A program made the position numbers and the translations under genes. The notes under the pieces were generated by a model. That model ran no database searches. It was not told where the DNA came from and worked only from the letters and a program-made list of their open reading frames with translations. From Cerrena zonata (Eukaryota; Basidiomycota; Agaricomycetes; Polyporales; Cerrenaceae), in the NCBI GenBank assembly GCA_038087015.1, contig JASBNA010000005.1, positions 1,612,001 to 1,676,000 of the forward strand: a stretch of 64,000 nucleotides of DNA, given 5' to 3'. This document shows, piece after piece, positions 10,187 to 28,269 of this stretch. Every line of letters starts with the position of its first letter. Position 1 is the first letter of the stretch.

Positions 10187-14239
<4,053 letters not shown>

Positions 14240-14832
14240 GACGGGTGTACGCTGCGCAGTCCGGTGAGGCGGAAAGAGTGCAGATAGTGACAACCCCTCC
14301 TAGTGTAGGTGAGCGGTATCTGCTAAGGCCCTATCGACGTTCCAGCGTGTCTGGGTTGTGAGAAGGTAGAGGTCTACGTGGAGGAGGTATTTCGAAATCT
14401 ATGTGCTGTTCCAGATTCAGTGCTATTCTCGTTTATGGGCGTTCCGCTGGTGTGATCACATAAAAGGCAGGTCAAGTAGAAACGAAGATGCTATTCTTAC
14501 CTTTGCAACATCAGAACAAGTGCATTCGGAGAAAAAACATGGTGGTATTCCACTACTATACAACAGCAAACAATGCAAAAGATACACGGTAGTGAGTTTC
14601 CTTGATACAGCAAAACATGTGACATGAAGATAGTTCCAACAAACGACGCAACGGTATTAGTAACACAACAACAGAGACAACGACGTCTAAGGGTAGATGA
14701 ACAGAGGGAGGAAAGATGAGGAAAGATGAGAAAAACCAAGTAAAAGAAGATGCAATGGTAAGTTAGAAAGCCAACAAAAAGGATACGACAGCCATTACGA
14801 ACGATGTAAAGCACAATAATCCAAGTAAAACT
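14240..14832. other. intergenic, no gene seen
   Basis: This is the 5' flank of the ATPase gene and the 3' flank of the Rho exchange factor gene. A minus-strand open frame (14497-14814) is hydrophobic by composition but lacks a supporting start context or introns. A further upstream exon of the ATPase gene cannot be excluded. Confidence 0.4.
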
Positions 14833-19294: not shown

Positions 19295-22266
19295 TCAAGG
19301 TGAGGGTGGTTCATTGTATGTGAATTCAACCGGCTCCCCAGTTTCCGTCAGCGGCCAGAAGTTGTTCCTAAACACATTAGTTGGATCATATTTCCGTTTG
19401 AGCTCGGCAAGGCGATCCCAGTTCTTGCCGTAGCAGGCCATGACTCGAGAAGGTAGTTCATGTCGACCAAGGAACTTATAATCAAACAGGTTAACGTTAA
19501 CCAGAAGCCAACAGTGTACAAGAATAAACTTACGGTCGGGAAAGGTCCGCCTACCGAGACCATTCCGATGGTTCCTTGCATCCACTATACAAGGAAAAGT
19601 TCTTCATCAGACACCCGTTGCTTGCTCATACGCATACAACGACATGAAACCTACCTCCTCGGCAGACGTGATGCACCTGGGATCATCGATGCCCATCTCC
19701 CATTGATGCAAGGCTGCGACGGTCCACACGGCCTCTCGCTGCTCTTTAGGCAAACACGTATCTTCGAAGTCGCCAATAGCGCCGCCTGACAGCTCAAATA
19801 TCCAAGCTATATAGCATGACGCCATGAACATTAACTAAACCACGTTGTGAAATGTAGGGGGAAATAGCCTTACTGCATCCTATAGGTGTGTCCCCAAATT
19901 GCATGACGGTCTTATTAATGACTTCATCCGGCAGAGAATGGATCAGAGCTGAACGCATGAACCACTGCCTCCCTCCTAAATATCAGTACCACCGACGTTT
20001 GAAGTCGAAGACACATTAATCAGTACGAAGTCCTTCATGTCAGTGAGAATTACGTCTGTACTTACGTTTTCCTCTTAGTACTTGCGCAACGCTATCCTGC
20101 TGGTTCAGGTAACTCTTTTCATTGACTTCATTCAAGATGGGCCGATCACCGTCCCAGCTTGAAATGGCGTTCAAATACTCTTGACCTTTCTCTTTGGGAC
20201 CGACATAACACATCTGGATGACAATGAGAGAATCTTGGTTTGCCGGACCGGTGGTTAGGAAGAGATTGGCGTAGAGTTCGCGCGGGCAGCCCTTGATACA
20301 GTCACGGAAGTGTTTGATCAGAGATGGTGCAGTCGCACGGTGGAATCGACTACAAACGAGGCATCTTGTAAGTCTGTAATCATGGCCGCTGGAAGAGACC
20401 TAGAACTTACTATAGTAGATTTCCGGCGAACACGACAGGGACTGGGAACGCTTTGACCTTGTATCGAGTCGCAATACCGAAAGCAGGCCCTGCACCGCGT
20501 ATAGCCCACCACAAGTCTTCTCTACTGTTAGTCTAGACCAATGCTATTACGGTGGAAGTAAACTTACCAGGATCGTTGTCTTTATCAAGAATAACGATCC
20601 GCCCGTCTGCAAGTACCATCTCTACCTCCACCAAATTGTCTACGCTCAGGCCATGCATACGACTGATGAACCCGAAACCTGCCAGTAACAATATCGATGA
20701 TCCTACAGGGTGGGCCGACCTACCGAAATTGAGTTTCAGAAATGGTGGACGATCAGGTCACGGCCGGAAATGCTTACGAAGGAATATGATATGGCACCAC
20801 CTTCTCTTCCCTTACACCTGTCAGTTTGTTGGTTCCCTCGAGGGCATTTTCCGACGTATACACATCCACCTCTTTCTGCCTCATCCCTGCGCCAATAGTC
20901 ACATATGCATGGCTATGGATCGGGTTCGCTACGCTCAATGTTCTGATGGGGCGCGATGCAGGGAACGTGTAACTACTACCCGGCGTGAATTGTCTAGCGA
21001 CGGAAGGATTGGTAAACCCAAAAGGACTTCGAATGATAGGAGAACTCCCAGGCGGACCTGCTCCGACGGTGATGGGACTCGGCCAACTTCTGATATTCGG
21101 GTACATGATACTAGCAGAGATGGGTGGAATGGCGGGGATAGTAGGTTCAATCCCACTATAGATGGGTGGACGAGTAGACGTAGAAGAGGACGAAGATGCT
21201 AGCCCAGGGATATATCCGAAAGGATCTGCATTAGATGAGTAAGAGTTGGTTTTGTTGCTCCCCGAGCTAGGGCCCTCTACGGGTGTGTTGGATGGCGAAG
21301 TACCGGTCGTCGCAGAACTACTGTCCATGGATGAGCTAGCGACCGAGTCCGTTGCGGAAGTAGTGGACTCTGAAGAAACTTGTCTATCTTGGATTTGTGG
21401 GACATTGTGTCGAGGTTCAGGGGAATGAAGCCTAGGACGATTTGTGGGTGGTTGTCGAGGTGTTTCTCCTTCGACATGGGGAAGAGGAGGACCTCTGAGG
21501 AAGGAACCAACCGACGTCGAAGCAGCATCATATGAGCGCAGGTGCGCATCGTCTAAAGACGCCTGTGCTCGCTGGCTGTTTCCACTCTCTGGTGGTGGAC
21601 TATCCTCCCTACGACGCTTCGTGGTCGTTACGGGAGTAGTATCTTCCGCAGCAATGTGAGTTGGTTGAGAAGTAGGACTTTGAGTGTGTGCCTGGATTAC
21701 TCCAAAAACGCCTTTACCCGTACTACTTCCCCTAGGCATATCCCTAAGGCTTGTCCACGTATGTCCATCATCAGTTGGGACCGGTGGCTCGATGTCGATT
21801 TCACGCATCAGGCTCAAGTCGATCACAACATCACCTGCGACGGACCATCCAGCGATTGCATATCCTCCAGCCTTCACCGAAGGCGAGAGATCGTGTTTGA
21901 TACAGAAACGGATTATGACACTGACGTCTTGCGCGTCCAAAGCAGACACAAGGATCTGGCAAAATGGTTTGATCTGGCCATTGAATGTTAGGATGCGTTC
22001 TTGAAACCTGTATAGAAGGCATATGAGATCAGCATAGCTTAACTATTGTTTTAAAATTTGGAGAACGAAGGAGATGATCCTGTCATCGATATGTTGGTGG
22101 CAGTATCATTTCATCCGGGAAATCGTAATATTGGCATTGCGCAGGATACTTACTCGTGATCGGTGGGCCGAAACACCCGCCCCTTGACCAACGAGACAAG
22201 CTCGTCAAACTGGACTTGTGTAATGGTAGGAGCAGGCCTAGATGATTTTACAGATATAGGTTCCAT
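19295..22266 (-). CDS. FAD-linked oxidoreductase, BBE/VAO type, with a large disordered insertion
   Basis: Flavin-dependent oxidases of this family oxidise sugars, alcohols or natural-product intermediates. The start at 22266 gives MEPISVKSSRPAPTITQVQF, with no signal peptide. The FAD-binding half contains LSAQD-like LDAQDVSVIIRFCIKHDLSP and VKAGGYAIAGWSVAGDVVID, the usual histidine of the covalent-flavin motif not being evident. It continues with YVTIGAGMRQKEVDVY, GSSILLLAGFGFISRMHGLS and DLWWAIRGAGPAFGIATRYK. The C-terminus carries the BBE block YDPTNVFRNNFWPL. Between the substrate-facing SLMREIDIEPP and YVTIGAGMR lies one uninterrupted open stretch of about 300 residues rich in Ser, Pro and Thr with a basic KRRRED patch. 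Splicing restores the frame at 20.75-20.83 kb (GTAAGC donor, GGTAG acceptor), so the gene looks intact. Around eight introns. Confidence 0.85.
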
Positions 22267-27413: not shown

Positions 27414-28269
27414 TTAGGATGAAGGTTCACGTGCAAGCACATCTAGTGGTGCGTGGGCTTCAGGTTTGAATATCTGGAGTGTCTCATCCTGTTTCAATTT
27501 CGGTCAGAGATCCAATTGATAGAGGTTCTCAAGGGGTTCTCACCAGAATATCCTTGCGCTCACGAACATCGCGCCTACAGCCCATTCTGCATGCACCCAT
27601 GTATGGCTCGGGAGCAGGCTCTGGTACAGGTTCAGGTGCAGGCACGGGTTCGGGCGCAGGCATGGGTTCGGGCGCAGGCATGGGTTCGGGCGCAGGCTCT
27701 CTCTTGCAGCCCATGAAGCAAGCACCCATCCATCGCTTCGCTTTCGGTTTGGGAGCAGGCTCAGGCTCTCGCTTGCAACCAAGGGCGCATGCACCCGTCC
27801 ATGCCTTAGGTTCGGGGACGGGGACGGGGACAGGCTCAGGAGCAGGCTTGGGAGTTCGTTTGCAGCCCATAAAGCATGCCCCCATCCATGGTTTGGGTTC
27901 TGGTTTGGGCTCTCGCTTGACTTCGACACCGTCGCGGGAGCAGCCGGCGCCACAAGCTCCCAAGTAAGCTGAACGCTTCATTACCGCGTCTGCTACAGTG
28001 ACGATGGCATCGGTGATGTACGCAGGGATAAACGGAGTCTACACTAAGTCTCAGTGACTTGTTATACATCGAAGTCGAGAACACTCACAGGGTTTTGCAT
28101 CTCGACCTCACCTCTCGGTGCAGTGCGCACGGGGGCGGCTTGCGCTACCGAAGCCGCTATGACGACAGTAAAGTGAGACACGTATCTTAAATGTGCATTA
28201 CAGGTACTTACCACCGACAAGGAGGCCACAGATTGCGAAAGTACGGGTGAGAATGAAAGTGGGTCGCAT
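27414..28269 (-). CDS. secreted precursor with five [YW]xGACxxGC modules and basic processing sites (KEP/RiPP-like candidate)
   Basis: Four predicted exons (28212-28269, 28089-28156, 27544-28038, 27474-excluded, 27414-27473) give 226 residues. Residues 1-27 form a signal peptide ([19 protein letters not shown], then AASVAQAA). After a spacer ([20 protein letters not shown]) come five nine-residue modules at 67-75, 93-101, 122-130, 145-153 and 188-196: [45 protein letters not shown]. Each is followed by SR, KR or RR; KR also precedes modules 1 and 4 closely. Linkers are EP-x-P repeats. This is the layout of Kex2-processed repeat proteins and of fungal RiPP precursors. I know no family with this core. 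If the last intron is not used, the protein ends at 27529 with VRTP instead. No maturation gene (UstY/DUF3328, tyrosinase, prolyl oligopeptidase) was seen nearby. Confidence 0.7.
27638..27701. repeat. 18-bp tandem repeat coding for EPMPAP linkers
   Basis: GGGTTCGGGCGCAGGCAT recurs head to tail about 3.5 times (plus-strand reading), with imperfect relatives upstream. On the coding minus strand it encodes the six-residue period [12 protein letters not shown] between modules 4 and 5. Linker length is therefore likely to vary by replication slippage. Confidence 0.7.

Follow-up and report, generated by a model that had tools for sequence, protein, structure and literature searches.

The window analysed here, i.e., the whole 64,000-nt stretch of contig C5, carries on its minus strand a four-exon gene. 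Its spliced frame, as read from the sequence, encodes a precursor of 231 aa (Table 1) and coincides exactly with the gene ends proposed by the initial annotation. The three introns of this exon model, which derives from the sequence alone, are all of type GT..AG with lengths of 55, 50 and 55 nt. The weakest part of the predicted model is the last intron together with exon 4; without this last splice, the frame stops 15 residues past core 5.

The precursor consists of a signal-like hydrophobic stretch, a short pro-region ending in MKR, five cores and a polar tail. Mean hydropathy reaches 1.21 to 1.57 in the 19-residue windows that start at residues 1-13, and no later window (step 3) exceeds 1.2. 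That is, there is a single N-terminal hydrophobic stretch, which looks like a signal peptide and agrees with the earlier reading of a secreted precursor. A GPI-type hydrophobic C-terminus was not found, the mean hydropathies of the last windows being -0.01 and -0.11. The cores are nonapeptides of the form [YW]xGACxxGC at residues 67, 93, 122, 145 and 188, followed by KR (three times), RR (once) or SR (once). The spliced frame thus reads the same five two-cysteine nonapeptides with aromatic first residue and SR/KR/RR that had been described before, including the two that are closely preceded by KR (KR-SA-Y at core 1, KR-W at core 4).

Table 1. Features of the precursor gene, with positions in the window and, where given, on contig C5.
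Feature	Window position	Contig position	Strand	Content	Basis
Whole gene	27414..28269	C5:1639414-1640269	-	four exons encoding a 231-aa precursor	spliced frame
Exon 1	28212..28269		-	start codon and hydrophobic signal-peptide-like stretch	spliced frame, hydropathy
Exon 2	28089..28156		-	last part of signal region (AQA/AP), pro-region	spliced frame
Exon 3	27544..28038		-	remaining pro-region, five cores, every spacer	spliced frame
Exon 4	27414..27488		-	predicted C-terminal tail, without hydrophobic (GPI-type) end	spliced frame, hydropathy
Core 1 YLGACGAGC	27940..27966	C5:1639940-1639966	-	KR-SA before; SRDGVEV-KR after	
Core 2 WMGACFMGC	27862..27888		-	KR-(XP)4 before; KR after	
Core 3 WTGACALGC	27775..27801		-	KR-(XP)8-KA before; KR after	
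Core 4 WMGACFMGC	27706..27732		-	KR directly before; KR after	
Core 5 YMGACRMGC	27577..27603		-	KR-(XP)16 before; RR after	
Longest STE13-type spacer	27604..27699		-	16 X-P dipeptides, KR to core 5	register control

We scanned 18 ORFs of the window, along with two of the yeast-like contig described below, for Pfam domains. The matches are ELP1, a Gig2-like protein (two ORFs), a P-type cation ATPase, RhoGEF, Efg1 and a saccharopine-dehydrogenase-like domain as well as sub-threshold FAD-binding and F-box matches; a modifying-enzyme cluster was not seen among them. The FAD-binding match (20774-22042, minus strand) lies 5.4 kb from the gene and, with 20.5 bits where the cut-off is 26.4, is too weak to suggest a RiPP cluster. 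A long open stretch of low complexity comes after it, and the locus may represent an oxidase gene that is degenerate or read in the wrong frame. Elsewhere in the window, a dispersed repeat occupies 36200-57250 in both orientations, with inverted arms of up to 372 nt that are 75-96% complementary. It carries Ser/Pro/His-rich open frames sharing a RGGQLTCPGLPFRGPRDK-like end.

We compared the cores with what is expected by chance. When the protein beyond residue 27 was shuffled 20,000 times, not a single core arose. At the DNA level, we searched the 55.5-Mb assembly for the degenerate pattern TRB N3 GGN GCN TGY N6 GGN TGY, in which the first codon can also be Cys or TAG. Of its 7 matches, 5 are in frame within the precursor gene; the reversed control pattern matches twice. 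The other two matches of the core pattern do not encode a core, since one starts with a Cys codon (and has an internal TAA) and the other with TAG. When the copies are compared in pairs, the five invariant codons (G, A, C, G, C) differ 25 times, each time at the third position and never at the first or second; across all nine core codons, first, second and third positions account for 19, 22 and 45 pairwise differences, respectively. Cores 2 and 4 encode the identical peptide with codons that differ at three third positions. By this codon pattern, the cores are apparently kept by selection at the protein level. The restriction of variation to third positions in the invariant codons also speaks for the minus strand and against the open frames antisense to it.

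Exon 3 finds no paralogue in the assembly besides itself at E values up to 1 (5 candidates scored). A Pfam search of the precursor gives nothing above the curated cut-off, with two low-complexity matches far below it, and a search against known structures yields four matches at chance level (best E 0.22). Promoter and terminator models, which are bacterial, match at the rate of shuffled sequence and are thus uninformative.

The spacers in front of the cores had been described as EP-x-P linkers. They are indeed Pro-rich, but this description understates their order: they are unbroken series of STE13-type X-P/X-A dipeptides, 35/35 in register, with P as second residue in 32 and A in 3 and with seven different residues in first position. 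The spacers are 2, 8, 18, 10 and 32 residues long, i.e., all even. Their dipeptides are in phase with the KR that they start from, and equally with what they lead up to, either the aromatic residue of the core or the following KR. Given the predicted KR/RR cutting, a 43-residue piece results in which 16 X-P dipeptides lie ahead of core 5.

We shuffled each spacer's own residues and counted how often the register was retained. For the spacers of 2, 8, 18, 10 and 32 residues this was the case in 99868, 2851, 32, 4737 and 11 per 200,000 shuffles, respectively, where residues are treated as independent and X-P runs may come from repeat expansion. As a further register control, we used 260,954 six-frame codons from 11 sequences, namely the window and ten stretches (two overlapping by 1.5 kb). 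In this set, four or more X-P dipeptides in a row occur 20 times. All 4 runs within the gene begin directly after KR; among the 16 outside the gene in these six-frame codons, none begins after KR or RR. With the criterion relaxed to four or more X-P or X-A dipeptides after KR/RR, five places are found, four of which are in the gene. The one outside, RRRPAPPPSP on the plus strand of the window, matches out of register too. Judged by sequence, the KR-(X-P/A)n-core-KR units are the STE13 signature of alpha-factor precursors, from which the STE13 dipeptidyl aminopeptidase strips X-A/X-P dipeptides after KEX2 (PMC6339444).

Next, we consider the class of the precursor. The published criteria for KEX2-processed repeat proteins (KEPs) are at least 4 KR/RR fragments, at least 3 of them sharing a similar motif, and a motif share of at least 15% of the length; the pipeline sets the C-terminal fragment aside and includes SignalP, TMHMM and FIMO steps (PMC6339444). 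Downstream of its signal region, our precursor is divided by KR/RR into 8 fragments, or 7 when the C-terminal one is not counted; five of them hold a core, and the motif covers 19.5% of the length, or 15.6% when four cores are counted. Fragment number, shared motif and length share are therefore all within the published limits, and a secretion signal with no other membrane span is indicated by hydropathy. The earlier assignment to the KEX2-processed repeat proteins stands as far as these criteria were applied. Moreover, X-A/X-P dipeptides directly follow the KEX2 site and continue up to the core, as in KEPs with STE13 signature. We consider it probable that the gene encodes a KEX2-processed repeat protein of the alpha-factor type in a basidiomycete-like fungus.

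A survey of 250 secretomes found KEPs with clear STE13 signatures in Basidiomycota (PMC6339444), and 76/7878 KEPs are homologous to six putative Basidiomycota pheromones (PMC7329392). The former resemble our precursor in having a basidiomycete host, a signal peptide, short repeated cores and KR/RR sites, with X-P/X-A dipeptides following the KEX2 site (PMC6339444, PMC9769878). They differ in the cores themselves: those printed in the text of the papers are, e.g., of -AADW, QYKAPSW and QSWGGCGGRGTPCW type, and none of them is [YW]xGACxxGC as here. Among them, QSWGGCGGRGTPCW of Trichosporon oleaginosus is a Basidiomycota KEP core with two cysteines (PMC6339444). None of the searchable papers contains in its text any of six strings, four of them cores and two shorter pieces. 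That is, the kind of precursor is already known, while the core sequence appears to be new when judged against sequences printed in text.

The following maturation is proposed. The precursor would enter the secretory pathway, KEX2 would cut after KR/RR, and KEX1 would trim the basic residues left at the C-terminus. The X-P/X-A spacers would then be stripped, two residues at a time, by a STE13-like dipeptidyl aminopeptidase of the membrane, which would halt at W/Y; the stop at the aromatic residue is predicted because residue 2 of the cores is L, M or T but never P or A. The predicted products are WMGACFMGC (twice), WTGACALGC, YMGACRMGC and a core-1 peptide of 16 residues, the latter being longer since core 1 is followed by SR, which is not dibasic. 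Their calculated (M+H)+ values are 1005.345, 881.364, 991.362 and 1556.683, respectively, or 1003.329, 879.349, 989.346 and 1554.668 with an internal disulfide. We hold maturation by KEX2, KEX1 and an STE13-like enzyme to be highly probable. From their sequence, the products are likely linear Cys-x3-Cys peptides and not UstYa-cyclised dikaritins. Trimmed linear peptides from the same architecture were detected in fruiting bodies of Pleurotus (PMC9769878).

Candidates for the respective enzymes are found on contigs that bear introns and are similar in G+C. On C3, a P_proprotein domain scores 63.7 bits (locus G+C 0.493) and its gene shows, by eye, subtilase-like exons and a membrane stretch. A DPPIV_N gene on C19 is matched in four pieces, the best with 143.8 bits (locus G+C 0.454), and has one N-terminal membrane stretch by eye. 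Serine carboxypeptidase matches lie on C5 and C19 among the 42 listed, none of which was singled out as KEX1. Genes of these three types would, on this proposal, process the precursor.

Regarding a receptor, an STE2 profile search of the assembly gives two matches only, which are overlapping pieces on C23 (164.9 and 75.4 bits). The match at C23:33761-34619 is split over two overlapping frames. The contig is low in G+C (0.35-0.38 in three stretches) and has long uninterrupted genes, for which reason this STE2 was rejected as cognate receptor of the precursor. C13, also low in G+C, carries a one-piece STE3 gene. More generally, G+C is 0.32-0.40 in stretches of C13, C23, C24 and C43, where matched genes are long open frames, and 0.45-0.49 in stretches of C3, C5 and C19, where matches are split into exons as opposed to one piece; the window has 0.46-0.50. 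These values refer to selected stretches, none of them on C46. The assembly looks like a mix of two organisms, one a fungus rich in introns with about 47% G+C, the other a yeast low in G+C whose genes are long and uninterrupted, and C23 and C13 point, by composition and gene structure, to a yeast-like contaminant or partner. Due to this mixture, genome-wide counts need sorting by contig.

Since C23 is yeast-like, its STE2 is not credited to the organism of the window, the attribution of contigs being inferred. On the intron-bearing contigs, no STE2 was found at E values up to 1, such that no receptor can be named for the predicted peptides. At C46:298453-333781, six multi-piece STE3 genes lie side by side (our own grouping, 298-334 kb), an array that we take to resemble the B (pheromone-receptor) mating locus of mushrooms. 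On this ground, the organism of the window is regarded as an agaricomycete-like basidiomycete. Further STE3 matches are on C4, on C57 and at C5:1511 kb, the last about 127 kb from the precursor gene.

The closest parallels outside the Basidiomycota are the ascomycete alpha-pheromone precursors. Those of S. cerevisiae (MFalpha1) and F. oxysporum have the same layout and the same predicted KEX2-KEX1-STE13 maturation. The F. oxysporum peptide WCTWRGQPCW starts, like the cores, with an aromatic residue and has two cysteines, although with CxxxxxxC instead of CxxxC spacing (PMC7289986); alpha-type peptides of Aspergillus are nine residues long, as are the cores (PMC6339444). In contrast to an ascomycete alpha mating pheromone, for which a cognate STE2 is expected in the same organism, no STE2 can be credited to the organism here under the inferred attribution of contigs, while the assembly holds a basidiomycete-type STE3 array.

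We also weighed readings in which the peptides are not signals. Among these, extracellular metal binding (Cu, Zn, Fe) by released CxxxC peptides, i.e., a small metallophore or metal buffer, is improbable. This reading needs the same maturation, and two conserved Cys along with Met (in cores 2, 4 and 5, or as neighbours of 4/5 cores) would suit soft metals. A P-type cation ATPase about 13 kb from the precursor gene (10510-14299 by ORFs) might fit as well, but we take it to be a housekeeping Golgi-type calcium/manganese pump and counted it against metal binding. In addition, other genes separate it from the precursor gene, no further metal-related domain is present among the 18 window ORFs scanned, and metal binding leaves the conserved aromatic first residue and Gly-Ala unexplained.

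We rate as quite improbable that the Pro-rich chain is a structural or surface protein, which stays whole or yields surface peptides and whose CxxxC modules cross-link in the wall. Pro/Glu-rich spacers with spaced cysteine modules would suit a flexible cross-linked protein, and there is a basidiomycete KEP, Rep1 of Ustilago maydis, whose peptides attach to hyphae (PMC6339444). However, Rep1 peptides have 37 aa and are without STE13 signature, unlike our precursor (PMC6339444). A structural role is further opposed by the KR that precedes every spacer and by the phasing of the dipeptides with KR, and a wall protein by the lack of a hydrophobic C-terminus for a GPI anchor.

Finally, the initial annotation had compared the precursor to dikaritins such as UstA (ustiloxin), in which UstYa-type oxidases cyclise the cores. 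Both have a signal peptide, KEX2 (KR) sites and repeated cores, two of the five cores here start with Tyr, and the assembly has at least 45 UstYa (PF11807) matches, several genes' worth. Yet C5, where the precursor gene is at 1639-1640 kb, has its listed matches at 939 kb and 115 kb; the nearest (C5:938822-939451) is about 700 kb away, and a dikaritin/RiPP cluster was rejected for lack of a listed UstYa match nearby. Dense UstYa clusters among those listed are at C11:429-868 kb and C124:22-48 kb, where three pairs have the same score on either contig, as though they were duplicates or alleles. Tyr in the cores is a criterion for dikaritin macrocyclisation, and 3/5 cores have W instead of Tyr. 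Y content also serves as criterion in PMC7329392. Furthermore, precursors of toxic cyclic tetrapeptides and epichloecyclins are reported to lack the STE13 signature (PMC6339444) that our precursor has, and UstYa genes are beside just 103/1680 Basidiomycota KEPs (PMC7329392). The STE13 layout does not exclude UstYa, given that 17/76 KEPs homologous to putative Basidiomycota pheromones have a UstYa (DUF3328) gene nearby (PMC7329392). With no UstYa neighbour among the matches listed, cores that are not all Tyr-bearing and STE13 spacers in register, the comparison to UstA does not carry over, and a dikaritin-like RiPP is very improbable.

Returning to linear peptides, by analogy a signalling role has about even chances. 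The most likely role would be that of secreted linear signals with a reducible Cys-x3-Cys pair, outside the mating system. Within this role, a second, non-mating alpha-factor-style system of cysteine peptides, with a receptor other than STE2 and with CxxxC as redox on/off switch, is a speculative and rather unlikely option. A precedent for such a switch is the Fusarium alpha-pheromone WCTWRGQPCW, which is inactive once its two Cys form a disulfide (PMC7289986). Knockouts of six C. cinerea KEPs show no apparent phenotype in culture (PMC9769878), and hence a signalling role of basidiomycete KEPs is not established in this literature.

Basidiomycete mating uses lipidated a-type pheromones, which leaves alpha-factor-style precursors in this group without an assigned job. 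The authors of the surveys call such precursors in basidiomycetes unexpected and ask for their receptor (PMC6339444, PMC9769878). In this respect, the gene offers a clean test case: the register predicts its mature peptides residue by residue, these can be synthesised, and the predicted two-cysteine core can be compared with the ascomycete pheromones.
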